Below, piece after piece: positions 14,951 through 47,556 of a DNA stretch of 64,000 nucleotides. The DNA lies in assembly GCA_021805825.1 (NCBI GenBank), contig JAJZEC010000008.1:1-64000 (forward strand), given 5' to 3'. The stretch is from Pseudomonadota bacterium. GTDB taxonomy: Bacteria > Pseudomonadota > Gammaproteobacteria > Burkholderiales > Burkholderiaceae_C. Both the position numbers and the translations under genes were made by a program. The notes under the pieces are model-generated. The model was not told where the DNA came from. It did no database searches and worked only from the letters and a program-made list of their open reading frames with translations. Numbering within the stretch: position 1 is the stretch's first letter; every line of letters begins with the position of its first letter.

Positions 14951-15049
14951 GGTCTGTCTCCTCGATCCGGGTGATCCCGGTTGTGTACGTGCGCACCGGG
15001 ATCCGGATGCGCCTTGGCTGGCGGCTCGCGCCGCCGATGCAACGTCGGC

Positions 15050-22109: not shown

Positions 22110-22297
22110 ACGGGCGGGAGTATCGGGCCGCAGTGGCCATTGAACGGCCGTTATCCACCTGCCGAAGGGCTGGCGCGGCGTGCTCCGAAGAACGAGCATG
22201 GTGACGGGCGACGCACGCGCACGGTGAGCCACCGGCGCGATCCGGCGAGCCTGCGGCGCGCCGCATGGCGCGCTGCCGCCTGGCGCGGGAGAGGATC

Positions 22298-25968: not shown

Positions 25969-26000
25969 TCTGCAACAAGAAAGCGCTTTCAAAGTGCAGA
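25969..26000. promoter_or_regulatory. LacI-type operator 1
   Basis: Perfect 12-bp palindrome GAAAGCGCTTTC (25979-25990) inside a wider symmetric dyad whose outer arms are TCTGCA (25969-25974) and TGCAGA (25995-26000). It lies 118 bp upstream of the first lipoprotein start. The same palindrome recurs at 26995, 30377 and 45211. Confidence 0.8.
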
Positions 26001-26989: not shown

Positions 26990-26994
26990 ATTTT

Positions 26995-27006
26995 GAAAGC
27001 GATTTC
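26995..27006. promoter_or_regulatory. LacI-type operator 2
   Basis: GAAAGCGATTTC, one mismatch from the palindrome at 25979. It lies 124 bp before lipoprotein B and heads the lipoprotein B-hydrolase-LacI unit, so the regulator may control itself. Confidence 0.7.
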
Positions 27007-27129
27007 ATGGATTGGCGGCACGATTCCCGAGCGGGCGAGTGCACATCCAGATCCGTCCGGACGCGACACAGGCACGCGGCCGGCGCGGCGAGCCCAGGCC
27101 TGTAGTACTGATAACGAGGAGATGGATCC

Positions 27130-30343: not shown

Positions 30344-30390
30344 TTGACACGACAGGCGAGGGATTCAAGAATCCTTGAAACCGCTTTCAA
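30344..30390 (+). promoter_or_regulatory. ABC/glucanase operon promoter with LacI-type operator 3
   Basis: TTGACA (30344-30349), 17 bp, AAGAAT (30367-30372), then TTGAAACCGCTTTCAA (30375-30390), one mismatch from a perfect palindrome. The operator covers the expected transcription start, a classical repression layout. The 12-gene run to 45135 follows. Confidence 0.78.
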
Positions 30391-30492
30391 AAAACGATTC
30401 CGCCTGCCGCTTGCGCTCGTTGACGCAAGGGCGGCGTCCATGTGAGGCGTTGCGCAACGGCGCACCGCGAGCTGCTGAACCCTTCCACGTCG

Positions 30493-31764
30493 ATGCTGCG
30501 CCGCCGGCAATTCCTTCATTCCCTGGGCTCGGGCTGCGCCGGCGCGCTGCTCGCCGGCTGCGCGCGCAGGCGTCCGGGGAATCGCCTGGTGGTGGCCGCC
30601 TATCCGTCGATCGACGAGGTGGCGCGCCACGCGCGCCCGGCCTGGAGCCGCCTGCATCCGAAGGTGCCGCTGCAGGTGGTGAGCCGCCAGGTGGGCGACC
30701 ACCACACCGCGATGCTCACCGCGCTGGCCACGGGGGAAGGCCTGCCAGACGTCATGGCCATCGAGGTCGGCTACCTCGGGCGCTTCGCCCGCGGCGGCGG
30801 GCTGCAGGATCTGGCGCGCCCGCCCTTCGGCGCCGCGGCGCTGCGCCGGCGCTACACCCCCTACGCCTACGACGAGGCGCTGCAGCCGGACGGTCGCGTC
30901 GTCGCGCTGCCCTGCGACATCGGCCCGGGCACCATGCTCTACCGTGCCGACCTGCTGCAGGCGGCCGGGGTGGCGCTGCCCGACATGCAGGCTTCGTGGG
31001 CGGCGATGCTGCGCGCCGGGCAGTCCATCCGGCGCCGCACCGGGGCCTGGCTGGTGGCCGACGCCGGCGACGTGCTGGACATCGCGATGCGCGATGACCT
31101 GCCGGCCGGCAGCGGGCTGTATTTCGATGCGCAGGGTCAGCCGGCGCTGCAGCAGGAGCGCTTTCTGCGGGCCTTCGAACTGGCCGCGCAGGTGCGCCGC
31201 CTGGGCCTGGATGCGCGGGTGCGCGCGTGGTCGCCGGCATGGGCCAGCGCGATCCGCCGCGGCCGCATCGCGACCCTGATGTCGGGTGCCTGGCTGGTCG
31301 GCCACCTGGAGTCCTGGCTGGCTCCGCACAGCCGCGGCCTGTGGCGCGCGGCGCAACTGCCGGCGGCCTCCTGGGTCGCCTACGGCGGCAGCTTCCTGGC
31401 CGTGCCGGCGCGGCTGTCGCCGCAGCGCAAGGCCCTGGCCTGGGATTTCCTGCGCCTGCTCAGCCTCGACCCGCAGCGGCAGTTGTGGGCCTTCAAGCAT
31501 GTCGATGCCTTCCCGGTGCTGCCGGCGACCTACGACGATGCCTTCTTCGACGCCCCGATCGGCTACCTGGGCGGCCAGCGCGCGCGCCGGCTGTGGCGCA
31601 GCGCGGCCTTGAACATCCGTGCCGTGCGCGTCGACGCGCAGGATGCCTTCGCGCAGGAGGTCGTCGGCAGCGCGCTCTACGACGTGCTGCACGAGGGCGT
31701 GCCGGCACCGCGCGCGCTGGCGCGCGCGCAGCGGCTGCTGCAGCAGCGGGTGGGGCAGGGCTGA
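30493..31764 (+). CDS. ABC transporter substrate-binding lipoprotein (gluco-oligosaccharide)
   Basis: 423 residues of extracellular solute-binding family 1. The N-terminus MLRRRQFLHSLGSG is twin-arginine-like and ends in the lipobox LLAGC (Cys23), so it is probably Tat-exported and lipidated. GEGLPDVMAIEVGYL and MSGAWLVGHLESWL are typical of sugar-binding proteins. It would deliver imported glucan fragments to the two permeases that follow. Start 30493 is set by the signal sequence. First gene of the operon. Confidence 0.85.
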   Translation: MLRRRQFLHSLGSGCAGALLAGCARRRPGNRLVVAAYPSIDEVARHARPAWSRLHPKVPLQVVSRQVGDHHTAMLTALATGEGLPDVMAIEVGYLGRFARGGGLQDLARPPFGAAALRRRYTPYAYDEALQPDGRVVALPCDIGPGTMLYRADLLQAAGVALPDMQASWAAMLRAGQSIRRRTGAWLVADAGDVLDIAMRDDLPAGSGLYFDAQGQPALQQERFLRAFELAAQVRRLGLDARVRAWSPAWASAIRRGRIATLMSGAWLVGHLESWLAPHSRGLWRAAQLPAASWVAYGGSFLAVPARLSPQRKALAWDFLRLLSLDPQRQLWAFKHVDAFPVLPATYDDAFFDAPIGYLGGQRARRLWRSAALNIRAVRVDAQDAFAQEVVGSALYDVLHEGVPAPRALARAQRLLQQRVGQG

Positions 31765-32744
31765 TGACCGGGCTCGCGCTGACGCCCGAGCTGTCCGCGG
31801 GGCCGCGGCAGCGGATCGCCCGGCGCCTGCGCGTGACGCCGCGCCTGGCGCCGTACCTGCTGCTCAGCCCCTTCGTCGTGCTGTTCCTGGTGTTCGGCCT
31901 GTTTCCGCTGGGCTTCTCGCTGTACCTGGCGTTCCAGTCCTGGCAGCCTGCCAGCGGGCTGGCGTCGATGCATTTCGTCGGCCTGCACAACTTCGCCTTC
32001 GCGCTGCACGATCCCTGGTTCTGGAAGTCGCTGGGCAACACCCTGTGGCTGGCGCTGGTGGCCGGGGTGCCGCAGCACCTGGTGGCGATTCCGCTGGCGG
32101 TGTTCCTGCAGTCCACCTCGCGGCGCCTGCGCGACTGGCTGTCGGCAGCCTACTTCATGCCCTACGTGACCTCGACGGTGGCTATCGCGGTGCTGTTCAG
32201 CGCCCTGTTCTCGGCCCACCACGGGCTGCTCGACCAGGCCCTGGGAGCGCTGGCGCGCCTGCCGCTGCTCGGCGCCTGGCTGCCGCGGCATGCGGTCGAC
32301 TGGCTCGGCCGCCCCGACACCATCAAGCCGGCGATCGCCATTCTCGTGTTCTGGCGCTACGTGGGCTTCAACACCATGCTCTACCTGGCGGCCCTGCAGT
32401 CGATTCCGCGCGAACTCCACGAGGCCGCGGAAATGGACGGGGCCGGGCGCTGGAGCCGCTTCTGGCATGTCACCCTGCCGGGGCTGCGGCCGATGATGTA
32501 TTTCGCCGTCACCCTGAGCGTGATCGGCGGCCTGCAGCTGTTCGACGAGGCTTTCATCCTCACCGGCGGACACGGCGGGGCCGACCAGGCCGGGCTGACC
32601 GCGGCGCTGTACTTCTATCGCGAGGCCTTCAACTTCGACGATTTCGGCGGTGCCAGCGCGATGTCCTGGCTGCTGTTCCTGGTCGTCGCGCTGGCCACCT
32701 GGGCCACCGGGCGGGCCTTCCGCGAGCGGGAGGGCGCCCGATGA
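31764..32744 (+). CDS. ABC sugar permease, MalF/UgpA type
   Basis: 326 residues, six to seven membrane helices. The cytoplasmic EAA loop is ELHEAAEMDGAGRWSRFWHVTLPGL. Its ATG overlaps the binding-protein stop (TGATG). Works with the next permease and the ATPase at 44065. Confidence 0.9.
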   Translation: MTGLALTPELSAGPRQRIARRLRVTPRLAPYLLLSPFVVLFLVFGLFPLGFSLYLAFQSWQPASGLASMHFVGLHNFAFALHDPWFWKSLGNTLWLALVAGVPQHLVAIPLAVFLQSTSRRLRDWLSAAYFMPYVTSTVAIAVLFSALFSAHHGLLDQALGALARLPLLGAWLPRHAVDWLGRPDTIKPAIAILVFWRYVGFNTMLYLAALQSIPRELHEAAEMDGAGRWSRFWHVTLPGLRPMMYFAVTLSVIGGLQLFDEAFILTGGHGGADQAGLTAALYFYREAFNFDDFGGASAMSWLLFLVVALATWATGRAFREREGAR

Positions 32745-33583
32745 GACTGTCGCAAGCCCGCGCGCAGGCGCGCATGGGGCGCACCGCGGCCTGGCTGGTG
32801 GTCGTCCTGGGCGCGCTGGTCATGGCCAGCCCGCTGTATTTCATGCTGGTGTTCGCGACCCAGGGCAGGGCGGCCATCTTCAGCGCGCCGCCACCGCTGT
32901 TCTTCGGCGACCATCTGCTGCGCAACGTGCACCTGCTGGTCGCCTCGGTGGCCTTCTGGCATGACTTCGGCCTCAGCCTGTACGTGGCCGCGGCCTCCAC
33001 CGTGCTGACCCTGCTGTTCTGCTCGATGGGCGGCTACGCCTTCGCGATGTTCGAGTTCCCGGGCAAGCGCGCGCTGTTCCTGCTGCTGCTGGCGACCATG
33101 CTGGTGCCGCAGTTCATGAACATGATCCCGACCTTCATGGTGATGGACGCGCTGCGCTGGATCAACCGCCCGCGCGCGCTGTACGTCCCGGGGGCGGCCA
33201 GCGCCTTCGGCATCCTGCTCATGCGCCAGTACATCGGCTCGGCGGTGCCGCCCGAACTGATCAGCGCCGCCCGCCTGGATGGCTGCGGTGAACTGGGCAT
33301 CTACTGGCGCATCGTGCTGCCGCTGATCGGCCCGGCGCTGGGCACCCTGGGGCTGATCAGCTTCATCGCCTCCTGGAACAACTTCCTGCTGCCGCTGATC
33401 GTCATGCGCACGCCGTCGATGTACACCCTGCCGCTGGCGCTGCGCAGCCTGCAGAACCCGGTCGACACCCAATGGGGCGCGCTGATGGCCGGCGCGGCCA
33501 TCGCCACGCTGCCCCTGCTGGTGGTGTTCGCGGTGTCCTCGCGGCGGCTGGTCGACGGGCTCACGCAGGGGGCCGTGAAATGA
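32741..33583 (+). CDS. ABC sugar permease, MalG/UgpE type
   Basis: 280 residues, six membrane helices. The EAA loop is ELISAARLDGCGELGIYWRI, with FIASWNNFLLPLIV near the end as in carbohydrate permeases. ATGA overlap with the preceding permease. Confidence 0.9.
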   Translation: MRLSQARAQARMGRTAAWLVVVLGALVMASPLYFMLVFATQGRAAIFSAPPPLFFGDHLLRNVHLLVASVAFWHDFGLSLYVAAASTVLTLLFCSMGGYAFAMFEFPGKRALFLLLLATMLVPQFMNMIPTFMVMDALRWINRPRALYVPGAASAFGILLMRQYIGSAVPPELISAARLDGCGELGIYWRIVLPLIGPALGTLGLISFIASWNNFLLPLIVMRTPSMYTLPLALRSLQNPVDTQWGALMAGAAIATLPLLVVFAVSSRRLVDGLTQGAVK

Positions 33584-35049
33584 GCACGCACCCGAACCCG
33601 AACCCGAACCCGACGCCGGCCGACGAGGGCCGGCATGCCGCGGCAGCCCCGGCTGCCTCCCGCAACCCAAGCCTGGAAACCGACAACGACATGACCCAAC
33701 ACCCTTCGATCGACTCCGCCGCGCTGGCCGCCCGGTTCCCCTCCGATTTCACCTGGGGGGTCGCGACCAGCGCGTTCCAGATCGAGGGCGCGGCCCGCGA
33801 AGACGGGCGGGGCGATTCCATCTGGGATGTGTTCTGCCGCCGCCCCGGCGCGATTGCCGACGCCAGCGACGGCGTCGTGGCCTGCGACCACTACCACCTC
33901 TGGCAGGGCGACCTCGACATCGTCGCCCGCCTGGGGGTCAATGCCTACCGCTTCTCGGTGTCCTGGCCGCGGGTGCAGCCGCAGGGCCGCGGCGCGTGGA
34001 ACCCGAAGGGGCTGGACTTCTACGACCGCCTGGTCGACGGGCTGCTGCAGCGCGGCATCGCGCCGCACCTGACGCTCAACCACTGGGATCTGCCGCAGGC
34101 GCTGCAGGATGGCGGTGGCTGGGCGGCGCGTGACACCGTGCACCATTTCGTCGACTACGCGCTGGAGATGCACCGCCGGCTGGGCGACCGCGTGCGCTCG
34201 CTGACCACCCACAACGAGCCCTTCGTGCAGGCCGTGCTGGGCAACGAGACGGGAATCTTCGCGCCGGGCCTGCAGCAGCGCGGGGTGGCCACCCAGGTCG
34301 CGCACCACCTGCTGCTCAGCCACGGCATGGCGCTGCGCGCATTGCGCGCCGCCGGCGCGCAATGCGAACTGGGCATCGTGCTCAACCTGTCGCCGGTGCA
34401 GGCGGCCAGCGACAGCGAGCAGGATCGGGCACGCGCGCGCCTGGAGGACGGGCGCCTGGTGCGCTGGTACATGGATCCGCTGTTCCACGGCCGCTACCCG
34501 GACGACGTGCTGGCCGACCTCGGGCCCGACGCGCCGGTGGTCGCCGAAGGCGACCTCGGCATCATCGCCACGCCGATGGACTTCCTCGGGGTCAACTACT
34601 ACTCGCGCAACGTGTTCAGCGCCGGAGGCATGGTCGAACCCCAGGCGCTGGGTGCCGAGACCACCGACATGGGCTGGGAGATCTACCCCGCGGGGCTGAC
34701 CGAACTGCTCTGCCGCCTGCACCGCGACTACCCGGTGCCGGCGCTGTACGTGACCGAGAACGGCGCGGCCTTCCGCGACGAACTGCAGGGCGGCCGGGTG
34801 GACGACGCTCCGCGCGTGCGCTACGTCGCGGAACACATCGCGGCGGCCGGCGCCGCGCTGGCCGCGGGCGTGCCCCTCAAGGGATTCATGGTCTGGAGCC
34901 TGCTCGACAACTTCGAGTGGGCCAGCGGCTACGCCAAGCGCTTCGGCATCGTGCATGTGGACTACGCGACCCAGCAGCGCACGCCGAAGGCCAGCGCCAA
35001 CTGGTACCGCGACTTCCTGCTCACCCACCGCGCGCGCGCCGCGGCCTGA
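33580..35049 (+). CDS. GH1 beta-glucosidase
   Basis: 489 residues. The GH1 core begins at FPSDFTWGVATSAFQIEGA (about residue 48). The acid/base is Glu213 in THNEPF and the nucleophile Glu393 in YVTENGAAF; WSLLDNFEWASGY closes the barrel. No signal peptide, so it releases glucose from imported beta-gluco-oligosaccharides in the cytoplasm. The N-terminal 40 residues are an extra low-complexity tail (THPNPNPNPTPADEG). ATG 33580 overlaps the permease stop; MTQHPS at 33691 would give a family-typical start and cannot be excluded. Confidence 0.92.
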   Translation: MSTHPNPNPNPTPADEGRHAAAAPAASRNPSLETDNDMTQHPSIDSAALAARFPSDFTWGVATSAFQIEGAAREDGRGDSIWDVFCRRPGAIADASDGVVACDHYHLWQGDLDIVARLGVNAYRFSVSWPRVQPQGRGAWNPKGLDFYDRLVDGLLQRGIAPHLTLNHWDLPQALQDGGGWAARDTVHHFVDYALEMHRRLGDRVRSLTTHNEPFVQAVLGNETGIFAPGLQQRGVATQVAHHLLLSHGMALRALRAAGAQCELGIVLNLSPVQAASDSEQDRARARLEDGRLVRWYMDPLFHGRYPDDVLADLGPDAPVVAEGDLGIIATPMDFLGVNYYSRNVFSAGGMVEPQALGAETTDMGWEIYPAGLTELLCRLHRDYPVPALYVTENGAAFRDELQGGRVDDAPRVRYVAEHIAAAGAALAAGVPLKGFMVWSLLDNFEWASGYAKRFGIVHVDYATQQRTPKASANWYRDFLLTHRARAAA

Positions 35050-35092
35050 GCCCGCGACCCATTCCCAGCGCTGCCCACGAACCCGAGCACCC

Positions 35093-36445
35093 GTGATCCT
35101 GCAACCCATCCTCAGCGCGCGCGACGGCGGTCTGCGGCTCAGCCCGCAGCCGGCGCTGCATCCTTCGCCGCGGGCCGCCGGCGTGCCCGTGCTGGCGGTC
35201 GACAGCGGTCGGCGCTTCCAGGTCATCGAGGGCTTCGGCGGCGCCTTCACGGAGGCCGCCGCGGTCAACTGGCTGGCGCTGTCGCCGGCGGCGCGCGAAG
35301 CCGCGCTGCATGCCTATTTCGGCGCGCCGCAGGACGGCGGGCATGGCTATAGTCTGTGTCGCATGCATATGGGAAGCTGCGATTTCTCGCTCGGCCACTA
35401 CTCCCACGTCGAGGAGGAGGGCGATGTCGCGCTGCGCAGCTTCAGCATGCAGCGCGACGAGCAGGCGCTGCTGCCGCTGATCCACGCCGCGCGGCGCGTG
35501 GCCGCGCATCCGCTGCGGCTGCTGGTGTCGCCGTGGAGCCCGCCGGCGTGGATGAAAAGTTCGCGTCAGCGCAATGGCGGAGGCAGTCTGCTGCCCCAGT
35601 ACCGCCAGGCCTGGGCCGACTATTTCGTGCGCTTCCTGCAGGCCTGCGTCGAGCAGGGCCTGGACATCTGGGGGGTCACGCCGCAGAACGAACCTCTGGC
35701 CGCGCAGCCCTGGGATTCCTGCATCTACAGCGCGCAGGAGGAGGCCGAGTTCATCGGCCTGCATCTCGGCCCGGCGCTGCGCCGCGCCGGGCTGGCGCAG
35801 GTGCGCATCGTTGGCTGGGACCACAACCGCGACCTGCTGCCCGAGCGCGCACGGGTGCTGTACGGCGACGCACGGGCGCGCGAGTACCTGTGGGGGCTGG
35901 GCTTCCACTGGTACGGCGAGCCGATGTTCGACAACGTGCGGCGGGTGCACGAGGCCTGGCCGGACAAGAAACTGCTGCTCACCGAGGCCTGCCAGGAAGG
36001 GGGCCCGCACCGCGACTCCTGGGACGTCGGCGAGCGCTACGCCGAGTCGATGCTGGCCGACCTCAATCACGGCAGCGCGGGCTGGATCGACTGGAACCTG
36101 TTCCTCGACCTGCAGGGCGGGCCCAACCACGTGGGCAACTACTGCAGCGCGCCGGTGCTCGTCGATGCCGCGGCCGACCGCTGGCTGGCCCAGCCCTCCT
36201 ACGACTGCATCGGGCATTTCACGCGCTACATCCGGCCCGGGGCGCAGCGCGTGTTCTGCGCGCCGTCGAGCCAGCGCCTCGAGGCTACCGCCTTCGCCGG
36301 CGCCGACGGCACGCTCAGCGTCGTGGTGCGCAACCGCGCCGAGCAGCCCCTGCAATTCAGCCTGTGCCTCGATGGAGCCGACCACGCGGCGTCGCTGCCG
36401 CCGCGCTCCATCGCCACCTTTCTCGCCCAGCACGACAGCCATTGA
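35093..36445 (+). CDS. GH30 glucosidase, candidate beta-1,6-glucan debranching enzyme
   Basis: 450 residues. GH30 fold: FQVIEGFGGAFTEAAAVN at the N-terminus, LLVSPWSPPAWMKSS, acid/base Glu200 in TPQNEPLAAQ and nucleophile Glu298 in LLTEACQEGG, then a C-terminal beta-sandwich (LEATAFAGADGTLSVVVRN). The family includes glucosylceramidases and endo-beta-1,6-glucanases. In this locus, removal of the beta-1,6 branches of laminarin-like glucan is the best fit. No signal peptide. GTG 35093 is the most suitable start. Confidence 0.85.
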   Translation: MILQPILSARDGGLRLSPQPALHPSPRAAGVPVLAVDSGRRFQVIEGFGGAFTEAAAVNWLALSPAAREAALHAYFGAPQDGGHGYSLCRMHMGSCDFSLGHYSHVEEEGDVALRSFSMQRDEQALLPLIHAARRVAAHPLRLLVSPWSPPAWMKSSRQRNGGGSLLPQYRQAWADYFVRFLQACVEQGLDIWGVTPQNEPLAAQPWDSCIYSAQEEAEFIGLHLGPALRRAGLAQVRIVGWDHNRDLLPERARVLYGDARAREYLWGLGFHWYGEPMFDNVRRVHEAWPDKKLLLTEACQEGGPHRDSWDVGERYAESMLADLNHGSAGWIDWNLFLDLQGGPNHVGNYCSAPVLVDAAADRWLAQPSYDCIGHFTRYIRPGAQRVFCAPSSQRLEATAFAGADGTLSVVVRNRAEQPLQFSLCLDGADHAASLPPRSIATFLAQHDSH

Positions 36446-36464
36446 CAAGACCAAGGAGACGATC

Positions 36465-37835: not shown

Positions 37836-37901
37836 ATTTCCTTGCCCGCAATTCCCCTGCCCGGAATCCCCGGGCGACATGAACAGAACCAGGAGACAGC
37901 C

Positions 37902-40202
37902 ATGGCGAAGATCACCAAGGCCCTGCTCGGCACGGCGGCGATGCTCGCGGCGCTGCCCGCGCTGGCAGCGACCGCCAACCCGCGCATTCCCGACGGGCTC
38001 GGCGGCTACTACGCAAGGCCCCATCGCGGGGGCTTTTTCAGTTCGGCCGGCGCCCAGCCGCCGATCGCCCTCTACCGCACGCCGCAGATGATGCGGCAGG
38101 CGGCCCCGACCAGCCAGTGGTATTCGTCGGTGATGTTCACCCGCTGGTCCTATCCTCTGTACGCGATTCCGGTGAGCTACCGCGCGGTTCCCGACGGCTG
38201 GCAGGTCGGCGTGCCCACGCAGCATGTGCAGACGGCGCGCGACGGCTACGCCCAGGTGGTGTGGCCGCACCGCGCGCAACTCACCGTGCAGCCCGATTTC
38301 AAGCCGTCGGCCGCGCTGCTCGCCGGGCACGGCGACTGGAGCGCCACGGTGGCCATGAACGGTGGCGGCCACAGCCTGCAGGCGACCGTGGTGCAGGGTT
38401 GCCCCTACAGCTACTACCGCACCGACACCACGCGCGTGGATCTGCGGCTGGCGGCGCCCGGCCAGGCGCTGGCGCAGGCCGGCGCCGACGGCAGCCAGGT
38501 GTTCCGCGTGGATGGCCAGGCCTACGCCGTGTACCCGGCGCAGGGAGCGAGCGCGCACTGGGTGTCGCCCACCGACCTGCAATTGCAGTTGCCGGCGGGC
38601 CATGGCTACTTCTCCATCGCCGCGCTGCCCGACACCAGCGCCGCGACCCTGGCGCTGTTCGCCGCCCACGCCTACGCCTTCGTCACCAACACCCGCGTGC
38701 ACTGGAAGTACGACAGGGCGAGCAGCCAGGTGATCACCGACTTCGACTTCAGCACCCAGTCGATGCAGGGCGGGCAGAGCGTGCCCATCGTCGGGCTGTT
38801 CCCCAACCTGTGGTACGGGCAGCAGATCCCGGGTCTGCTGCAGGCCGGCTTCCCCAGCGTGCGCGGCCGCGTCAAGCTGCTCGTCGCCAGCCATTTCCAG
38901 ACGCGCCTGACCTACCACGGCATCGTTCCCTTCTGGCCGCAGCTGCCCGCCGCCGCGGGGGGCAGCCGTGTCGACACCCTGCTCGGCGGCGACGTGGCCA
39001 AGATGCCCGAGGCCTTCGAACTGCAGGGCAACGGCACCTACTGGGTGGGCAAGGGACTGGGGCGCGCTGCGCAGCTGATGGACATCGCCTACGCGCAGCA
39101 CCGGCTGTCGGACGCCAGGGATCTGGCGGGCATGCTGCAGCGGCACTTCGCGCAGTTCTTCTCCGGCAACAGCTCGACCAGCTACTTCGTGGTCAACCAC
39201 TCGCTGGGAACGACGCTGGGCTATCCGTCGGAGTACGGGAGCGTCAGCCACATGAACGACCACCATTTCCACTATGGCTACTGGATCAACGCAGCCGCAC
39301 AGCTGGCGCTGCACGATCCGCAGTGGGCCAGCCCCCAGCACTGGGGCGGCATGGTGCAGCTGCTGGTCGACGACATCGCCACCAGCCGCCACGGGCTGGC
39401 CAGCTACCCCTTCCTGCGCAACTTCGATCCCTATGAGGGCCATTCGTGGGCGAGCGGCGATGCGGCGATGAACGCCGGCAACAACCAGGAATCCTCGTCC
39501 GAGGCGGTCAACGCCTGGGCCGGGCTGATCTTCTGGGGCGCGGCCACCGGCAACACCCGCCTGGAGGATCAGGGCATCTACATGTACACCACCGAGGTGC
39601 ACTCGATCGAGGACTACTGGTTCGACATCCACCACATCGTGTTCGCACCGCAGTACCACCGCGTGCTGGCGGCGCAGGTGTTCGGCGACAAGTACACCTA
39701 CAACACCTGGTGGACGCAGAACCCGCGGGAGATCCAGGGCATCAACCTGCTGCCGATGACCACGGCGTCGACCTATCTCGGGCGGGATCCGCGCTACGTC
39801 ACGAACTTCTTCCTCGCCATGGACAAGATGAGCCAGCGCTACGCCAACGCCGGCATGAGCGACGGTACCCCGGCGGACATCTGGCAGGATGTGTTCGCCG
39901 AGTACCGGGCGCTGGCGTCCCCCGCACAGGCCCGCGCCGCATGGAACTCCCAGGGTTCGACCGAAGGCGGCGACAGCCGCACGCATACCTACTACTGGAT
40001 CCGCAGCCTGCAGTACATGGGGACGCCGGACTTCGACGTCACCGCCGACACCCCGCTGTACGCCGTGTTCCGCAAGCCGGACGGCGAGGTCACCCACGTC
40101 GCCTACAACGCCGGCGCGACGCCGCTGGCGGTGCGCTTCAGCGACGGCACCACGCTGAGCGTGGCCGCGCATGCACTGGGCGTGGCGCGCAGCAAATCCT
40201 GA
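37902..40202 (+). CDS. GH81 endo-beta-1,3-glucanase
   Basis: 766 residues. Signal peptide MAKITKALLGTAAMLAALPALA. GH81 motifs are NDHHFHYGYWI, YEGHSWASG and GNNQESSSEAVNAW, the last with the catalytic glutamates near Glu530 and Glu534. It cleaves beta-1,3-glucan chains internally outside the cytoplasm, giving oligosaccharides for the porin or ABC transporter. RBS AGGAGA before ATG 37902. Confidence 0.93.
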   Translation: MAKITKALLGTAAMLAALPALAATANPRIPDGLGGYYARPHRGGFFSSAGAQPPIALYRTPQMMRQAAPTSQWYSSVMFTRWSYPLYAIPVSYRAVPDGWQVGVPTQHVQTARDGYAQVVWPHRAQLTVQPDFKPSAALLAGHGDWSATVAMNGGGHSLQATVVQGCPYSYYRTDTTRVDLRLAAPGQALAQAGADGSQVFRVDGQAYAVYPAQGASAHWVSPTDLQLQLPAGHGYFSIAALPDTSAATLALFAAHAYAFVTNTRVHWKYDRASSQVITDFDFSTQSMQGGQSVPIVGLFPNLWYGQQIPGLLQAGFPSVRGRVKLLVASHFQTRLTYHGIVPFWPQLPAAAGGSRVDTLLGGDVAKMPEAFELQGNGTYWVGKGLGRAAQLMDIAYAQHRLSDARDLAGMLQRHFAQFFSGNSSTSYFVVNHSLGTTLGYPSEYGSVSHMNDHHFHYGYWINAAAQLALHDPQWASPQHWGGMVQLLVDDIATSRHGLASYPFLRNFDPYEGHSWASGDAAMNAGNNQESSSEAVNAWAGLIFWGAATGNTRLEDQGIYMYTTEVHSIEDYWFDIHHIVFAPQYHRVLAAQVFGDKYTYNTWWTQNPREIQGINLLPMTTASTYLGRDPRYVTNFFLAMDKMSQRYANAGMSDGTPADIWQDVFAEYRALASPAQARAAWNSQGSTEGGDSRTHTYYWIRSLQYMGTPDFDVTADTPLYAVFRKPDGEVTHVAYNAGATPLAVRFSDGTTLSVAAHALGVARSKS

Positions 40203-40222
40203 ATCCCCTGAAGGAGCAGCAC

Positions 40223-41236
40223 ATGTCCAAGACTCTACTCGCAAGCGTGCTGGCAGCACTGTTGCTGGCCGGCTGTGGCTCAAGCTCGATCCCCAGCACA
40301 GCTTCGAGCTCGGGCTCGAGCTCGAACACGGGCACCAACACGGGCACGACCAGCGTGCCCGGCACCACGGCCACCGGCGGCCTGGCCGCGAACTACAAGA
40401 CCACGGTGTGGGAGGACAACTTCGCCAACGACGCGCCGGGTGCCCCCAGCAGCACCTACTGGGCGGCCGAGGTCGGCAACGGTGCCGGCGCGCCCTACAA
40501 CAACCCCGGCTGGGGCAACAACGAGGCCGAGTACTACCTGGCCAGCAACGCCCAGGTGGTGGGAGGCTACCTCGACCTGCACGGGCAGGCCGACTCCACG
40601 GTGTCGGGCAACACCTGCAGCGGCGCGCCCTGCGCCTACTCGTCGGCCAAGCTCACCTCGGTGCAGACGGTCGACCTGAGCAAGCCGGGGTTCCTGGAGG
40701 TCAAGGCGTCGCTGCCGACGGTGTCGGGAGCCTGGCCGGCCATCTGGCTGTTGCCGGGGACGACTCCGGCGGGCAATCCGAACGCCACGCAGCCGGTGTG
40801 GCCGATCGGCGGCGAGATCGACATGGCGGAGTGGCTGGGCAAGTATTTCAGCGGCCAGGACTCGCTGGTGCAGAGCACCCTGCATCTGCCGTCGCCGGCA
40901 ACCGGCGGCTACGCCGACAACTACGAGTACCAGAAGATCACCCTGTCGAGCCCGCTGTCGGGGAATTTCCACCTCTACCAGCTGGCCTGGACTCCCGGTC
41001 AGATCGAGTTCGCGGTGGACAACCAGACGGTCATGACCTGCACCGAGAGCAGCATGAGCTGCACGACCATCGCCGGCGGCAGCTATCCGGCGAACGCGAT
41101 CTGGCCCTATGGAACCACCTACACGCAGTACTACCTGATCCTGAACCTGGCCATCGGCGGCAACCTGGGTGGCACGCCGGCGGCGAATTTCAACCAGACC
41201 ATGCAGGTCGCCTACGTGCGCTACATGACGCCTTGA
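40223..41236 (+). CDS. GH16 lipoprotein, laminarinase-like
   Basis: 337 residues. Lipobox LLAGC (Cys18), a Ser/Thr/Gly linker, then a GH16 jelly-roll. The catalytic ExDxxE is intact: Glu198, Asp200 and Glu203 in GGEIDMAEWLG. AIWLLPG and YYLILNLAIGGNLGG are typical of endo-beta-1,3-glucanases. It probably acts on the cell envelope on polymeric glucan. It lies 20 bp after the GH81 gene. Confidence 0.92.
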   Translation: MSKTLLASVLAALLLAGCGSSSIPSTASSSGSSSNTGTNTGTTSVPGTTATGGLAANYKTTVWEDNFANDAPGAPSSTYWAAEVGNGAGAPYNNPGWGNNEAEYYLASNAQVVGGYLDLHGQADSTVSGNTCSGAPCAYSSAKLTSVQTVDLSKPGFLEVKASLPTVSGAWPAIWLLPGTTPAGNPNATQPVWPIGGEIDMAEWLGKYFSGQDSLVQSTLHLPSPATGGYADNYEYQKITLSSPLSGNFHLYQLAWTPGQIEFAVDNQTVMTCTESSMSCTTIAGGSYPANAIWPYGTTYTQYYLILNLAIGGNLGGTPAANFNQTMQVAYVRYMTP

Positions 41237-41254: not shown

Positions 41255-42178
41255 ATGGAGGAGCAGGCGGAGGGGCAGGGGGGCATGCAGCGTGCGGGCT
41301 GGATCCTGCGCTGGCACGACGAATTCGACGGCGACCGCGTCGACACCACCAAGTGGCATTGCGAGCAGGGCAACGGTTTCCACGACCCCTACAGCGGGCA
41401 GTGGGTTCCCGGCTGGGGCAACGAGGAGCTGCAGTACTACACCGCCGATCCCGGCAACGTGTTCGTGCGCGACAGCGTGCTGCACATCCGCGCGTTGCAG
41501 GAGCAGCGCGAAGGCTGTGCCTACACCTCCGCGCGCCTGCGCAGCCGCGCCGCCGACGGCAGCGCGCTGTTCGCCCAGCGCTACGGCCGCTTCGAATTCC
41601 GCGCCCGCGTTCCGCAGGGCAAGGGGCTGTGGCCGGCGGTGTGGATGCTGCCGCTGGAGGAACAGTACGGGCGCTGGGCGGCCTCCGGGGAGATCGATGT
41701 CGTCGAGGTCTGCGGCGACGCCGGGCACGAGGCGCTGGGCAGCATCCATTTCGGCTGCTCCTTCCCGGAGCGCGAGCTGATCACCCACCGGCTGGCGCAT
41801 GGCGGCAGCCTGGCGGACTGGCATTGCTACGCCGTCGAGTGGGATCCGGGTTGCATTTCCTGGGAGTTCGACGGCCGCAAGTGGGCGCAGGAGAATTTCT
41901 GGTGGAGTTGCAGCAAGACCCGCGACGGCGCCGGCGTGCGCCCGCAGGGCGAGCACGAGCTCAACGCCTGGCCGGCGCCCTTCGACCGCCCGTTCTACCT
42001 GGTGATGAACATTGCCGTGGGCGGCAATTTTCCCGGAACCCCCGACGCCTCGACCCCGTTCCCGGCCGAGCTGATGCTCGACTATGTGCGGGTGTACGAG
42101 CGCGCCGGGGGCTACGCAGACGCAGCGCCACGCGGCAAGGGCCGCCTGCCGTGGCAGGAGGAAGACCATGTCGCGTGA
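41255..42178 (+). CDS. GH16 beta-1,3-glucanase without signal peptide
   Basis: 307 residues. Complete GH16: WHDEFDGDRVDTTKW, PGWGNEELQYYT and the catalytic Glu146, Asp148 and Glu151 in SGEIDVVEVCG. The N-terminus (MEEQAEGQGGMQRAG) is acidic and polar, with no export signal and no better upstream start, so the enzyme looks cytoplasmic. It would then work on imported oligosaccharides. Good RBS (AAGGGAGACGG). Confidence 0.9.
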   Translation: MEEQAEGQGGMQRAGWILRWHDEFDGDRVDTTKWHCEQGNGFHDPYSGQWVPGWGNEELQYYTADPGNVFVRDSVLHIRALQEQREGCAYTSARLRSRAADGSALFAQRYGRFEFRARVPQGKGLWPAVWMLPLEEQYGRWAASGEIDVVEVCGDAGHEALGSIHFGCSFPERELITHRLAHGGSLADWHCYAVEWDPGCISWEFDGRKWAQENFWWSCSKTRDGAGVRPQGEHELNAWPAPFDRPFYLVMNIAVGGNFPGTPDASTPFPAELMLDYVRVYERAGGYADAAPRGKGRLPWQEEDHVA

Positions 42179-43127
42179 GCATGGTACCCACAACATGCTG
42201 GACGCGCAGGGCGTCCAGCGCTGGTGGCAGGCCCGAACGGTCGAGGACATCGCGGGAGCGATGTCCTGGCCGCCGCAGGCGCCCAGCCAGTTGCTGCAGT
42301 CGCGGGATCTGCCCGCGGCGTGGCGGCGCAGCCTGGAGGCCGGCTTGCACGGCCTGTGCTTCAGCCCCTATCGTCCGGGGCAGCGGCCCGGCATGCGGAT
42401 CGACGAGGAGGCGATTTCCGAGCGCCTGCGGATCATCCGGCCTTATACGCAGTGGATCCGCAGCTTTTCCTGCACGCTGGGGCACGAGGCCACGCCGCTC
42501 CTGGCGCGCGACTCCGGGTTGAAGACCCTGGTCGGTGCGTGGCTGGGTATCGACGAGGAGCGCAACCGCGAGGAAATCGAAGGCCTGGTGGAACTCGCCC
42601 GCCAGGGGCTGGTGGACATCGCCGCGGTGGGCAATGAAGTGCTGCTGCGCGGCGACCTCGGCGAGGACGCGCTGCTGGGCTACATCGAAGAGGTACGGGC
42701 GCGTGCGCCCGGGGTTCCGGTGGGCTATGTCGATGCCTACTTCCTGTTCGAGAAGCATCCGCGCGTGACGGCGGCCTGCGACGTGGTGCTGGTCAATTGC
42801 TATCCCTTCTGGGAGAGCTGTCCGCGCGAGCAGGCGCTGCATGCCATGCAGGCCATGTACCTGCGCGCGGTGGGCGTCGCGGGAGGCAGGCCGGTGGTCA
42901 TCGCCGAGACCGGCTGGCCCGACCGCGGCGCGCCGCAGGGCGCGGCCGTGCCTTCGGTCGACGATGCGCTGTGCTATTTCATCGACGCCCAGGATTGGGC
43001 GCGGCGCAACGGCGTGCCGATGTTCTATTTCTCCTCCTTCGACGAGGCCTGGAAGGTGGATGCGGAGGGCGATGTCGGCGTCGCCTGGGGCTTGTGGGAC
43101 GAACAGGGCAGACTCAAGCATGCTTGA
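42168..43127 (+). CDS. GH17-family beta-1,3-glucanase-like enzyme A, cytoplasmic
   Basis: 319 residues. GH17 pattern: GLHGLCFSPYRPGQRPG at the first strand, acid/base Glu157 in AVGNEVLLRG and nucleophile Glu247 in VIAETGWPD. No signal peptide. Clearly paralogous to the GH17 domain fused to the GPH transporter (45274): both have VNCYPFWE.CP, GAWL and an F.EAW or F.ESWK ending, and the two catalytic Glu residues are 90 apart in each. It overlaps the GH16 gene by 11 bp, with AGGAGGAAG inside that gene as RBS. Confidence 0.87.
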   Translation: MSREHGTHNMLDAQGVQRWWQARTVEDIAGAMSWPPQAPSQLLQSRDLPAAWRRSLEAGLHGLCFSPYRPGQRPGMRIDEEAISERLRIIRPYTQWIRSFSCTLGHEATPLLARDSGLKTLVGAWLGIDEERNREEIEGLVELARQGLVDIAAVGNEVLLRGDLGEDALLGYIEEVRARAPGVPVGYVDAYFLFEKHPRVTAACDVVLVNCYPFWESCPREQALHAMQAMYLRAVGVAGGRPVVIAETGWPDRGAPQGAAVPSVDDALCYFIDAQDWARRNGVPMFYFSSFDEAWKVDAEGDVGVAWGLWDEQGRLKHA

Positions 43128-44061
43128 CGACCAGGTGGTGCCGGTGCTTCCCTGCGCGCCGGCGATCTGCTATTCCGGCTACCGCGCCGGCCAGAGCCCG
43201 GCCACTGCGCAGTTTCCCTCGCGCGAGCAGATCCTCGAGGATCTGCTGCTGCTGCAGCGGCACTGGAGACTGATCCGGCTGTACGACTGCGGGCCGCACG
43301 CGCAGCGCGTGCTCGAGGTCATCCACCGCGAGGGGCTGCAGCTGCGCGTGCTGCTGGGGGCCTACCTGGAGGCCGAGATCGACAACCCGCGGTGCCCCTG
43401 GGGCGGCTGCCATGACGCGCAGACCCTGCGCGCCAACCGCCTGCGCAACGAGGCCGAAGTCGACGGCCTGATCGAGCTGGCGCGCCGCTACCCGCGGGAA
43501 GTCGTTGCCGGAGCGGTGGGCAACGAGGCCTGTGTGGACTGGACCGACCACCTGGTGGCGCCGTCGCGGGTGCGCGAACTGCTGCGCCGGGTGCGGCGCG
43601 GCGTCGAGCTCCCGTTGACGGTGTGCGACAACTACGTGCCGTGGCTGGGCGAGCTCGGCGCCGAAGTCGGCGCGGAGGTCGATTTCGTGTCGCTGCACAC
43701 CTACCCGGTGTGGGAGAACAAGAGCATCGAGCACGCCCTCGACCACACGCAGGCCAACTACCAGGAGGTGGCGCGGGCCTTCGCCGGCAAGCAGGTGGTG
43801 ATCACCGAGGCCGGCTGGCCGAGCGCGGCCAACGGGCGCGGTTTTCCCGCGGTGCATGCCTCCGAGGGTCTGCAGCGACTGTACCTGCATGCCCTGCTCG
43901 ACTGGACGCAGCGCGCCGGCATCACCTGCTTCGTGTTCGAGGCCTTCGACGAAAAGTGGAAGGGCTCGGACGACCCGCTGGAGCCGGAGAAGCACTGGGG
44001 CATCTACACCGAGGCCCGTCTGCCCAAGCGCTTCGTGGCCGGCGCACAGGCGCGGGGCTAG
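43120..44061 (+). CDS. GH17-family enzyme B, cytoplasmic, divergent
   Basis: 313 residues. GH17-like: GYRAGQSPA, acid/base Glu136 in AVGNEACVDWTDH, nucleophile Glu230 in ITEAGWPS, and VDFVSLHTYPVWE in place of the VNCYPFWE seen in the other two. It is more distant from them and may have a different linkage or chain-length preference. No signal peptide. It overlaps gene A by 8 bp. Confidence 0.83.
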   Translation: MLDDQVVPVLPCAPAICYSGYRAGQSPATAQFPSREQILEDLLLLQRHWRLIRLYDCGPHAQRVLEVIHREGLQLRVLLGAYLEAEIDNPRCPWGGCHDAQTLRANRLRNEAEVDGLIELARRYPREVVAGAVGNEACVDWTDHLVAPSRVRELLRRVRRGVELPLTVCDNYVPWLGELGAEVGAEVDFVSLHTYPVWENKSIEHALDHTQANYQEVARAFAGKQVVITEAGWPSAANGRGFPAVHASEGLQRLYLHALLDWTQRAGITCFVFEAFDEKWKGSDDPLEPEKHWGIYTEARLPKRFVAGAQARG

Positions 44062-44064
44062 GCC

Positions 44065-45135
44065 ATGAGCCAGGTGCTCCTGCGGGCATTGTGCAAGGAC
44101 TATGGCGCGCGCCAGGTCATCCGGGGCATCGATCTGGAGGTACGCAGCGGCGAGTTCATGGTGTTCGTCGGCCCCTCCGGCTGCGGCAAGACCACCACCC
44201 TGCGCATGATCGCCGGGCTGGAGTCGATCAGTTCCGGCGATCTGCTGATCGACGGCGTGCGGGCGAACGACCAGGGGCCGTTGCAGCGTGGCGCGGCGAT
44301 GGTGTTCCAGAGCTACGCCCTGTACCCGCACATGACCGTCGAGGAGAACATGGCCTTTCCGCTGCGCATGGCCGGCGTGCCGCGCGCGCAGCGCCGCCTG
44401 CGCGTGGCGGAGGTCGCGCGCACCCTGGGTCTGGAGCGTCACCTCGGGCACCTGCCGCGCCAGCTCTCCGGCGGCGAGCGCCAGCGGGTGGCGATCGGGC
44501 GCGCCATCGTGCGCCGACCGAAGGTCTTCCTGTTCGACGAACCCTTGTCGAACCTGGACGCATCGCTGCGCGTGGACATGCGCATCGAACTTGCGCGCCT
44601 GCACCGCGAGATCGGAACGACCATGATCTACGTCACCCACGACCAGGTGGAGGCGATGACCATGGGGCAGCGCATTGCCGTGTTCCGTGCGGGGCGCATC
44701 GAGCAGGTCGGCCCTCCGATGGAGTTGTTCGACACCCCGGCGACCGAATTCGTCGCCAGGTTCCTCGGCACCCCGCCGATGAACATGCTGGAGCAGCCTG
44801 CCGACGACGCGGCCGAGGCCTGCCGAGGGCTCTGGCAGGCGCTGGCCGCCGCGGCCGCGCAGGGGGCGCAGCGCATCGGCGTGCGTCCGCAGCATCTGCT
44901 GGTCGACGCGGCCGGGGAGGGGGTTGCAGCGCGCGTGGATTTTGTCGAGCATCTGGGGGATTCGTCGATCCTGCACCTGCGCCTGCAGGGTGTCGACACG
45001 GTCTGGCGGGCCCAGCTGCGCGGCGCGCAGGCGCGCAGCCACGCGGCAGGGCAGATGGTCGGACTGCGGGTGGGCGGGCCGGTGCACGCCTTCGATGCCG
45101 AGGGACGGCGCATCGATGGCGGGGCGCCTGCCTGA
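44065..45135 (+). CDS. ABC transporter ATPase, MalK/UgpC type
   Basis: 356 residues. Walker A GPSGCGKTT, Q-loop FQSYALYPHMTVEEN, signature LSGGERQR, Walker B FLFDEPLSNLD, switch His in VTHDQ. The C-terminal TOBE/regulatory domain includes GVRPQHLLV. It powers the two permeases at 31764 and 32741 although separated from them by seven other genes. Last gene of the operon, 3 bp after GH17 enzyme B. Confidence 0.92.
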   Translation: MSQVLLRALCKDYGARQVIRGIDLEVRSGEFMVFVGPSGCGKTTTLRMIAGLESISSGDLLIDGVRANDQGPLQRGAAMVFQSYALYPHMTVEENMAFPLRMAGVPRAQRRLRVAEVARTLGLERHLGHLPRQLSGGERQRVAIGRAIVRRPKVFLFDEPLSNLDASLRVDMRIELARLHREIGTTMIYVTHDQVEAMTMGQRIAVFRAGRIEQVGPPMELFDTPATEFVARFLGTPPMNMLEQPADDAAEACRGLWQALAAAAAQGAQRIGVRPQHLLVDAAGEGVAARVDFVEHLGDSSILHLRLQGVDTVWRAQLRGAQARSHAAGQMVGLRVGGPVHAFDAEGRRIDGGAPA

Positions 45136-45210
45136 ACCAGCCCGAGGCACGCTGGGGAATTCCCTAGAGGCGCGCGCCGACGTCTCCGGCTAGGCTTCGC
45201 ATGCAGATAT

Positions 45211-45222
45211 GAAAGCGCTTTC
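45211..45222. promoter_or_regulatory. LacI-type operator 4
   Basis: Perfect GAAAGCGCTTTC, 52 bp before the GPH-GH17 gene. Identical to operator 1. It puts the transporter fusion under the same regulator as the ABC operon. Confidence 0.8.
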
Positions 45223-45273
45223 AAAAACACTGCGGCCGCATGCGCAACCGGCCGTGCCCGAGGACGACAGCTG

Positions 45274-47556
45274 ATGACCACGACAAGCTCGCGCCTTTCG
45301 ATTTCGGAGAAGATCGGCTACGGATTCGGGGACTTTGCCTCGAACCTGTTCTGGCAGATGTTCTCGATCTTCATCGCCAAGTACTACACCGACGTCTTCC
45401 TGCTCAGCGCCGCCCAGATGGGGACGATGATGTTCGTCACCCGACTCGGCGACGCCTTCATCGACCCGGCGGTCGGGGCCATCGCCGACCGCACGCACAC
45501 GCGCTGGGGGCATTTCCGCCCCTACCTGCTGTGGATGGCCATCCCGATGGCGGTGGCCGCGGTGGCGGCCTTCACCGTGCCCGACCTCAGCGGCACCTCG
45601 AAGGTGGTGTATGCCTATGTCACCCTCAGCCTGATGATGATCGCCTATTCGGCGATCAACATTCCCTACTCGGGACTGCTGGGGGTGCTCACTCCGAGTT
45701 CGACCGAGCGCACCAGCGTGTGCTCCTACCGTTTCGTCATGGCGCTGCTGCCGGTGTTCATCATCGTCAACACCGCGCTGCCGCTGGCCAAGTATTTCGG
45801 TGGCTCGGAGAATTCCCCGCGCGGCTGGCAGATGACCATGATCATCTTCGCCTCCCTCGCCGTGGTTCTCTACTGGGTGACCTTCGCGATGACCAAGGAG
45901 CGCGTGCGCCCGGAGCCGCGCGGCGAAGGCTCGTTCCGGCGGGATCTGCAGGATCTCAAGCGCAACCGTCCGTGGCTGGCCCTGTGCGTGGTGGGCGTGG
46001 CGGCGCTGACCTTCTCCAACATCCGCAACACGGTGGCGATCTACTACTTCCAGAACGTCGTCCCCCACGGCGGGCACTATTTCGGCTACGTGATGACCAG
46101 CGGCGCGCTGGCCTTCATCCTCGGTGTGATGGCCACCTCGCCGCTGTCGCGTCGCTTCGGCAAGCGCAACTTCTACATGGTCTCCATGACCATGGCCGGG
46201 CTGGCCTCGCTGGCCTTCTATTTCGTGCCGCCGTCGAACATCCCGCTGGTGTGGATCGTGCAGACCCTGATCAGCCTGTTCGCGGCGCCCACGGCCCCGC
46301 TGATCTGGGCGATGTATGCCGACACGGCCGATTTCTCGGAGTGGAAGAACGGTCGCCGCGCCACCGGCCTGGTGTTCTCGGCGGCTTCCTTCGCGCAGAA
46401 GTTCGGCTGGGCGCTCGGCGGAGCGGGGACCGGCTACCTGCTGTCCTTCTTCGGCTACAAGCCGGACGTGGCGCAGAGCGCCTACACCATGCATGGGATG
46501 GTGCTGATGGCCAGCGTGATCCCCGCCTGCGGCGCGGCGCTGGCCGTGGTGGCGCTGTTCTTCTACGAAATCGACGAACCCACGGTGCGCACGATGGGCA
46601 CCGAACTCGAAGCCATGCGCCACGCCCGCGAGCAGGCGCGCGAGCAGTCCGCCAAGCCCCGGACGTCGAGTGCGACCGCGGTTGCCGGCGCCCCGGCGGG
46701 CGCGCCGCTGCAGCTCGACCCGGCGCAGCGCGAACGCTTGCGTGGCGAATTGCAGGGGCTGCTGGAGCAGGGCATCCACGGCATGTGCTTCGGCCCCTAC
46801 GTGGGCGGGCAGTCGCCGGGTCAGCGCATCGATGCCGAGCGCATCGCCCAGCGCCTGGGGCAACTGCGGCGCAATGCGCGCTGGGTGCGGCTTTTCTCCT
46901 GCACTCAGGGCAACGCACAGGTCGTGCGCGCGGCGCGTTCGATGGGTCTGCGCACGATGGCCGGGGCCTGGCTGAGCGGCGATGCCCGGCGTGACGCCGA
47001 GGAACTCGACGCCCTCGTCGAACTCGCGCGCGACGGCCAGGTCGACCTCGCGATGCTGGGCAACGAGGCCCTGCTGCGCGGCGAACTCGACGAGCAGCAA
47101 CTGCTCGAGGCGCTGCAGCAGTTCCGCAGCCGCGCGCCCGGGGTGACGGCCGGCGTGGTCGATGCCTATTCCTCCTTCCCCGGACGCCAGCGCCTGCTGC
47201 AGGCGGTCGACGTGGTCGGGGTGAACTGCTACCCCTTCTGGGAAGGATGCCCGGTCGATCAGGCGCTGGATCGCCTGCGCTCGATGATCGACCAGACGCG
47301 CGCGCATCTGGGAGACAAGCCGCTGGTGGTCACCGAAACCGGCTGGCCCACCGCGGGTTCGGCGCATGGACTGGCCCATCCGGGCAGCGACGCGGCGCTG
47401 CGCTACGCCGTCGATGCCTTGCGCTGGGCGGCCGCCGAAGGCCTGGAGCTGTTCTATTTCGAGGCCTTCGACGAATCCTGGAAGACCTCGCAGGAGGGCG
47501 ACGTCGGCGCGCACTGGGGGCTGTGGGACAGCCGCGAGCAGTTCAAGTTCGCCTGA
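45274..47556 (+). CDS. GPH-family sugar importer fused to a cytoplasmic GH17 domain
   Basis: 760 residues. Residues 1 to about 440 form a complete glycoside-pentoside-hexuronide (MelB-like) symporter: ISEKIGYGFGDFASNLFWQM, VTRLGDAFIDPAVGAIADRT, NIPYSGLLGVLTPSSTERT and MYADTADFSEWKNGRRATGL. A charged linker (AMRHAREQAREQSAKPRT) leads to a full GH17 domain from about residue 485, with acid/base Glu598 in LGNEALLRG and nucleophile Glu688 in VTETGWPT. Both ends of a GPH carrier face the cytoplasm, so the hydrolase would meet the sugar as it leaves the carrier. There is no frameshift and one continuous frame. The GH17 part is a paralogue of enzyme A. Controlled by operator 4. Confidence 0.9.
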   Translation: MTTTSSRLSISEKIGYGFGDFASNLFWQMFSIFIAKYYTDVFLLSAAQMGTMMFVTRLGDAFIDPAVGAIADRTHTRWGHFRPYLLWMAIPMAVAAVAAFTVPDLSGTSKVVYAYVTLSLMMIAYSAINIPYSGLLGVLTPSSTERTSVCSYRFVMALLPVFIIVNTALPLAKYFGGSENSPRGWQMTMIIFASLAVVLYWVTFAMTKERVRPEPRGEGSFRRDLQDLKRNRPWLALCVVGVAALTFSNIRNTVAIYYFQNVVPHGGHYFGYVMTSGALAFILGVMATSPLSRRFGKRNFYMVSMTMAGLASLAFYFVPPSNIPLVWIVQTLISLFAAPTAPLIWAMYADTADFSEWKNGRRATGLVFSAASFAQKFGWALGGAGTGYLLSFFGYKPDVAQSAYTMHGMVLMASVIPACGAALAVVALFFYEIDEPTVRTMGTELEAMRHAREQAREQSAKPRTSSATAVAGAPAGAPLQLDPAQRERLRGELQGLLEQGIHGMCFGPYVGGQSPGQRIDAERIAQRLGQLRRNARWVRLFSCTQGNAQVVRAARSMGLRTMAGAWLSGDARRDAEELDALVELARDGQVDLAMLGNEALLRGELDEQQLLEALQQFRSRAPGVTAGVVDAYSSFPGRQRLLQAVDVVGVNCYPFWEGCPVDQALDRLRSMIDQTRAHLGDKPLVVTETGWPTAGSAHGLAHPGSDAALRYAVDALRWAAAEGLELFYFEAFDESWKTSQEGDVGAHWGLWDSREQFKFA

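Follow-up and report, generated by a model that had tools for sequence, protein, structure and literature searches.

A GPH symporter-GH17 fusion gene in a beta-1,3-glucan locus of Pseudomonadota and a plausible coupling of sugar uptake to cleavage

The locus and the fusion gene

The window analysed here, i.e. the whole stretch of 64,000 nucleotides examined, carries a group of beta-1,3-glucan, ABC importer and LacI genes, all of which lie upstream of and on the same (+) strand as a gene for a GPH carrier-GH17 fusion (45274..47556). Profile matches identify in this group a LacI-family regulator (29274..30314), an ABC solute-binding protein (30442..31764), two ABC permeases in overlapping ORFs with BPD_transp_1 in each (31227..33583), GH1 (33472..35049), GH30 (34955..36445), GH81 (37842..40202), in which a signal-peptide-like stretch is seen by eye, GH16 (41255..42178) and an ABC importer ATPase of the UgpC/MalK type (44065..45135). 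Another ORF with GH16 (39446..41236) contains, as judged by eye, an internal lipoprotein-like N-terminus (MSKTLLASVLAALLLAGC), and its true start is probably downstream of 39446. Two stand-alone GH17 genes were likewise found by profile match, viz. GH17 'a' (42168..43127; start chosen by us at MSREHG), which is 49% identical to the fused GH17 and in which no signal peptide was seen by eye, and GH17 'b' (43120..44061; start chosen by us at MLDDQ), which overlaps the end of 'a' and also matches the fused GH17. Upstream of the beta-1,3-glucan genes, a 979-aa ORF (22265-25204) begins, by eye, like a lipoprotein and matches CBM_2 in two stretches, and between GH30 and GH81 there is a 753-aa ORF (35574-37835) with no Pfam match, which overlaps the GH30 ORF and may not be a gene.

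The 138-base gap between the ATPase and fusion genes holds the perfect palindrome TGAAAGCGCTTTCA (45210..45223), which is likely a LacI-family operator of the fusion gene. The window contains 4 sites with at most two mismatches to it, compared with a mean of 0.09 and a maximum of 1 in the shuffles, and in 6 of 9 loci of the window's genus, versus 0 of the 19 other loci examined, the exact palindrome occurs no more than 350 bases upstream of the carrier. The sites with one mismatch (25978-25991, 26994-27007 and 30376-30389) are likely to form one regulon with the fusion gene. These sites precede an ORF of 318 aa without a name, a lipoprotein-like ORF of 402 aa and the gene of the ABC solute-binding protein. 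Neighbouring genes were also scanned for two distant fusions; GH81, GH16 and LacI are nearby in one of them (L035), and a solute-binding protein, GH1 and GH16 in the other (L030). Downstream of the fusion in L030, a 1053-aa ORF without a Pfam match (14384-17545), possibly a glucan phosphorylase, lies beside an ORF that appears kinase-like by eye.

The fusion gene is a single frame of 760 codons with zero internal stops, encoding 760 aa. Its carrier half (residues 15-435; 45316..46578, +), with 12 predicted membrane helices, matches all 427 of the 427 profile positions of PF13347 (MFS_2; 1.8e-101) and scores 393.6 bits with the GPH:cation symporter model TIGR00792 (model positions 1-435 of 437) against a curated cut-off of 231.35, which upholds the GPH identity given in a preliminary description of this DNA. 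Residues D60 and D64 of the carrier align with MelB Asp55 and Asp59, which have a role in cation binding. A linker (residues 436-494; 46579..46755, +), which in the window's genome is without an in-frame ATG bearing a Shine-Dalgarno core, leads to the GH17 half (about residues 495-760; 46756..47553, +). The latter scores 40.9 bits with PF00332 (cut-off 28.2), although this match covers only its C-terminal part (residues 662-759, profile positions 206-302 of 306). However, phmmer aligned residues 534-753 with RmBgt17A of Rhizomucor miehei (4WTP), and the predicted model of this half matches 4WTR over 268 columns (TM 0.88 of target); based on these two results the GH17 barrel is complete. An ORF of 774 aa on the reverse strand over the same stretch is regarded as spurious, since the gene on the + strand is the one picked by the codon-position G+C pattern.

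The earlier claim that a full GPH symporter and a full GH17 domain share one frame is thus confirmed, and the same arrangement occurs in 25 distinct genomes. Sequencing error had been named beforehand as something that could have created the fusion, and among the 31 loci of a public genome scan all except L035 are titled as metagenome-assembled genomes (MAGs). However, the 25 separate genomes include that of G021 (6 contigs, rated 100% complete) as well as the L035 record, and these independent copies rule out an artefact of sequencing or assembly, the probability of which we regard as negligible.

The preliminary description further stated that no such fusion was known from the literature. 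However, in the sections of Unfried et al. 2018 (PMC6246565) that deal with this protein, FORMB_24740/FbGH17B of Formosa sp. Hel1_33_131 is described as an N-terminal MFS transporter joined to a C-terminal GH17, and the same idea of coupling between uptake and cleavage is suggested there; the joining to an MFS transporter is restated in a passage of PMC11005184. The window's gene likewise encodes an N-terminal MFS and a C-terminal GH17 as a single frame, lies in a beta-1,3-glucan locus and, compared by description, belongs with the Formosa MFS-GH17 transporter-CAZyme fusions, a kind known since 2018. The two share a 12-helix MFS part, the C-terminal GH17, a laminarin locus and the suggested coupling. 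They differ in that the Formosa locus is of Bacteroidota and has TonB-dependent receptors and SusD-like proteins nearby, as given in the locus description of PMC6246565, and GPH family membership is established for the window's carrier, whereas the Formosa fusion is likened to it by description. The same sections state that the MFS-GH17 fusion is common in marine Flavobacteriia and, as of 2018, undescribed in other bacteria. In the literature searched, no description of a Pseudomonadota fusion was found, and the pertinent passages of PMC8371827 and PMC9676036 mention no fusion.

Predicted topology and the active site of the fused GH17

An AlphaFold2 model built on the 25 fusions has a mean pLDDT of 80.7 and a pTM of 0.56; residues 459-474 have a pLDDT below 50, and the mutual placement of the carrier and GH17 halves is not given by it. 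In Foldseek, the carrier half matches MelB (9OLI) with a TM of 0.86 of target, and the predicted fold is the 12-helix, MelB-like fold of GPH proteins with both termini inside. The predicted inner loops contain 24 K/R in 115 residues and the outer loops 2 in 74, with helices taken from the model and helix ends counted in the loops. From the 12 helices, the MelB match and this positive-inside count, the GH17 half is predicted to lie on the cytoplasmic side, in agreement with the location proposed earlier for the C-terminus. However, the hydrolase should not be described as being at a "channel exit", since a GPH protein is a carrier and has none.

In the (beta/alpha)8 barrel of the GH17 half, as judged from the predicted model against 4WTR, the two catalytic glutamates are present as had been claimed, viz. 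E598 (GNE; codon 47065..47067, +), the predicted acid/base, which aligns with the GSE glutamate of 4WTP, and E688 (TETGWP; codon 47335..47337, +), the predicted nucleophile, which aligns with the Ala of the active-site mutant 4WTR. Both are invariant in 25/25 fusions. GH17 enzymes act on beta-1,3-glucans, e.g. the laminarin of algae. The kind of reaction that the two residues serve is less certain, and the fused GH17 may not be a hydrolase in the strict sense. The closest solved structure, RmBgt17A, is a glucanosyltransferase, and according to the passages on these enzymes in PMC11005184, its Trp-Glu pair is required for transfer, its Tyr102Ala change abolishes transfer, and both it and MlGH17B have subsites -3 to +2. 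When the fusions are examined for the equivalents of Tyr102, Trp157 and Glu158, which characterise beta-1,3-glucanosyltransferases, the Trp and Glu are retained (W656 and E657, invariant in the 25 aligned sequences), but the position of Tyr102 is occupied by Leu (Leu601 in the window's protein), again in 25/25. FbGH17B differs from the window's protein in having Met at this place, and its Trp-Glu pair is kept according to one passage of PMC11005184, the wording of whose conclusion is less clear.

However, Leu601 should not be interpreted as proof against transfer. Leu is also found at this place in 14 of 16 rows of long GH17 proteins from other Pseudomonadota, a set defined by frame length, from which only L090 was scanned and found to contain GT2 domains; the remaining 2 rows (L034 and L039) are of the GH17 'b' kind by motif and tree place. 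As characterised transglycosylases exist among GT2-linked proteobacterial GH17s (passages of PMC11005184), Leu at the Tyr102 place is compatible with transfer. GT2-GH17 membrane proteins (beta-glucan synthases/transglycosylases) resemble the fusion in being membrane proteins that bear a GH17 domain, but they have a glycosyltransferase partner (e.g. L090) and form a separate branch of the GH17 tree.

These observations bear on an alternative in which the fused GH17 is a transglycosylase that would disproportionate incoming oligosaccharides, yielding a small product along with a chain too long for leaking back through the carrier, or would build up a short-term store. Besides the identity of the nearest solved structure, the retained Trp-Glu pair and the Leu shared with GT2-like GH17s, this alternative gains from MlGH17B of Muricauda lutaonensis, which in the passages of PMC13188888 and PMC11005184 is a predicted cytoplasmic GH17 without a signal peptide, has an MFS gene in the same laminarin cluster and is a transglycosylase. 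However, MlGH17B is a separate protein and has Tyr at the Tyr102 place, where Leu is invariant in the fusions and where the change to Ala kills transfer in RmBgt17A. Further, of the GH17s characterised from similar loci, described in the same two sources, it is FbGH17B that is the fused counterpart, and this is an exo-beta-1,3-glucosidase whose GH17 half sets glucose free from debranched laminarin products (enzyme description in PMC6246565). Based on these comparisons, made by description with FbGH17B and MlGH17B, we regard the transglycosylase alternative as rather unlikely.

Distribution, linker and descent of the fusion

The fused frame is present in 8 of 28 genomes of the window's genus, which includes a record titled Thiomonas sp. 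(L040, the same as G016). The public genome scan, which is a lower bound because it used two narrow peptide patterns, gave 31 loci, of which 23 have both domains in one frame; these, with the window and G021, make up the 25 distinct fusions, and 6 of the 23 are already among the 8 genus genomes. Titles of the records name Rubrivivax, Paucibacter, Gallionellaceae, Nitrosomonadales and Steroidobacteraceae, as well as beta-, gamma- or unplaced proteobacteria, and one of the 25 fusions, that of Paucibacter sp. KBW04, comes from a record without a MAG label. Among the non-fused loci there are 6 in which the carrier either stands alone or is truncated at a contig end: L040, L043 and L044 (gene cut by the contig end), for which no GH17 was found in the genome; L045 and L046, with carrier and GH17 'a' as separate genes; and L047, considered as a possible half of a split fusion, in whose genome a stand-alone 'a' is present and the carrier runs into the contig end. 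The others are L054, a distant carrier, and L053, a carrier remnant. In L053 (12133-12432) the carrier match ends after about 30 residues and is followed by a glgC-like gene by eye, with GH17 a and b remaining upstream. In the genome of L028, an extra GH17 piece was considered as a separate 'a' gene and rejected; as it is 98% identical over 583 bases to the end of the fused gene, it is put down to an adjoining contig or a strain copy.

Evenly drawn samples of the order (399 genomes), class (369) and phylum (398), which overlap and in nearly every genome of which the best two candidate places were scored, showed no fusion beyond the window's own genome at cut-offs of 1e-30, 1e-60 and 1e-60, by which a divergent fusion could be missed; hence the fusion is rare. 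Spread by mobile elements or viruses was rejected, as no viral relative was confirmed with the two narrow peptide patterns and 0 of 284 matching plasmid records span 80% of the whole query. The GH17 half alone finds 11 plasmid records. On the Vibrio fortis plasmid pLMG21557 (L139:8914-10726), a gene annotated as GH17, with 41.5% identity to the fused domain, overlaps a second glycosyl hydrolase gene by 8 bases, and the annotation of the 18.8 kb around it that were displayed includes no sugar-carrier gene. Two other loci with long open frames in the search table, L109 (2869-4371) and L105 (2856-4487), were considered as further fusions of the carrier; they are separate genes, in which related carriers are directly followed by a large gene resembling a GH94-type phosphorylase by eye, and in L109 there are 3 bases between the carrier stop and the next start.

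The carrier tree places 32 rows (25 fused and 7 alone or cut, with L010 and L040 being the same) in one group (SH-aLRT 100%). In the GH17 tree, the 25 fused domains are interleaved with 16 stand-alone 'a' domains (of which L115 duplicates that of the window) in a single group (98%), from which 'b' and the GT2-like kind are separated. Each tree was made by a quick search, and in each many of the inner forks are weak and long-branch warnings were raised. The branching of the carrier-only L040 inside the genus group indicates that GH17 loss occurs, and the interleaving of fused and stand-alone domains only leans towards an origin of the Pseudomonadota fusion separate from that in Flavobacteriia.

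The linkers are variable in sequence and also in length (in 23 loci, 55-123 residues separate the domain matches), and yet none of the 25 contains an in-frame stop, compared with 52 and 43 stops in the other two frames. A frame kept open in 25/25 despite such variability speaks for selection on the joined form. This is of importance for an alternative in which the fusion merely anchors the enzyme or sets a 1:1 ratio, the joined frame being near-neutral and uptake not kinetically coupled to cleavage. The separate carrier and 'a' genes of L046 and L045, the GH17 pair of the Vibrio fortis plasmid without a nearby carrier, and the wide variation of the linkers agree with this alternative. However, the absence of in-frame stops argues against it, and genes with an internal start also appear to retain the joined frame although its loss would cost them little, and we consider it a somewhat doubtful explanation.

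The internal start in question is an in-frame ATG in the linker, located 5-7 bases after a Shine-Dalgarno core, which is seen in 8 of the 25 fusions (L027, L028, L030, L034, L037, L041, L051 and L052) at residues 482-495 in their own numbering, as aligned; the window's gene has a shorter linker and no such site. The start reads MS at 6 of these 8 ATGs, and a fitting MS start is also seen by eye in 7 of 8 stand-alone 'a' N-termini (it is absent in L110), with one more in G816. In L049 the linker site is elsewhere and likely due to chance (shuffle rate 0.364). A Shine-Dalgarno core precedes 10 of 33 linker ATGs versus 9 of the 632 ATGs in the rest of these genes, and 9 of 25 linkers (L049 included) have a site versus 1.97 of 25 expected from codon shuffles, where, due to the post hoc setting of the rule and the relatedness of the rows, P values are descriptive only. 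The site is present in 0 of 10 genomes with a separate 'a' versus 9 of 15 without it (Fisher 0.0028, uncorrected for kinship); in this comparison MAGs may miss genes, and the carrier tree needs 2 changes for 'a' and 6 for the internal start.

We read the linker ATG with its Shine-Dalgarno core as a relic of a former GH17 start that was left after loss of the carrier stop, and genes having it may also make free GH17. Products from genes within genes are known elsewhere (PMC10327210, in the part concerned with such genes). Tentatively, the Pseudomonadota fusion could then have arisen apart from that of the Flavobacteriia by stop loss between a carrier gene and the GH17 gene following it; several lineages would still use the old ribosome-binding site and start, producing tethered as well as free GH17, while lineages with a separate 'a', the window's included, would have lost this start, so that the gene would give them the fused form alone. 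This pattern provides natural comparisons (tethered only, tethered and perhaps free, and separate genes) for a direct test of coupling.

A proposed mechanism of uptake and cleavage

The explanation that we consider probable is that an inner-membrane GPH symporter with a tethered cytoplasmic GH17 shortens incoming beta-1,3-glucan oligosaccharides. Secreted GH81 and GH16 would cut beta-1,3-glucan outside, and short linear oligosaccharides would be imported by the fusion, a sugar:cation symporter, and in parallel by the ABC importer. The GH17, held on the cytoplasmic C-terminus by a flexible linker, would shorten the arriving oligosaccharides, most likely as an exo-beta-1,3-glucosidase similar to FbGH17B, keeping the carrier's own substrate low at the inner face so that back-flux falls, and GH1, GH30 and the free GH17 would complete the degradation. 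The fusion, its active-site residues, the predicted topology, the gene neighbourhood and the distribution come from the computation; the substrate, the direction of transport, the exo action, the location of the other enzymes and the kinetic benefit are inferred, and a coupling of uptake to cleavage is plausible.

The complete domains, the intact active site, the positive-inside C-terminus and the presence of a beta-1,3-glucan locus also beside two distant fusions favour this mechanism, as does, from the passages of PMC6246565 and PMC11005184, the release of glucose from debranched laminarin products by the Formosa GH17 half, in which Met replaces Tyr102, where the fusions have Leu, with the Trp-Glu pair kept. 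Against it, the carrier occurs without GH17 in L040/G016, L043 and L044, and as the locus has two free GH17 genes as well as an ABC importer, the tether is not obviously needed. GPH carriers have mostly small sugars as cargo, and a GH17 with subsites -3 to +2 would prefer longer chains. Also, according to a passage of PMC6246565 that does not specify which two are meant, a periplasmic location is likely for two of the enzymes encoded in the Formosa cluster, and this may stand against a cytoplasmic GH17.

The 2018 report, in the sections cited above, knew no transporter-CAZyme fusion of this kind beyond the Flavobacteriia that it studied (PMC6246565), and the Pseudomonadota case extends the kind to another phylum. 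Its occurrence there in a beta-1,3-glucan locus that is composed differently indicates that more than one lineage benefits from joining the two parts and, if the origins are separate, it would be convergent evidence that an enzyme on an importer pays.

Other proteins provide precedents for parts of this arrangement. LacS similarly combines a GPH carrier with a soluble domain, which is EIIA-like, but this domain is regulatory and not an enzyme acting on the cargo (passages on LacS in PMC10710835). This precedent could suggest that the GH17 half is mainly a sensor gating the carrier in the manner of the IIA-like domain. However, the catalytic glutamates and many other active-site positions are invariant in 25/25 fusions, whereas some losses among them would be expected in a pure sensor, and a sensor role is very improbable. 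The tethered enzyme proposed here has a parallel in the fused LplT-Aas ORFs, in which a transporter is joined to an enzyme processing its cargo on the cytoplasmic side, although there the cargo is a lysophospholipid and not a sugar, and the enzyme is unrelated (PMC11416262).
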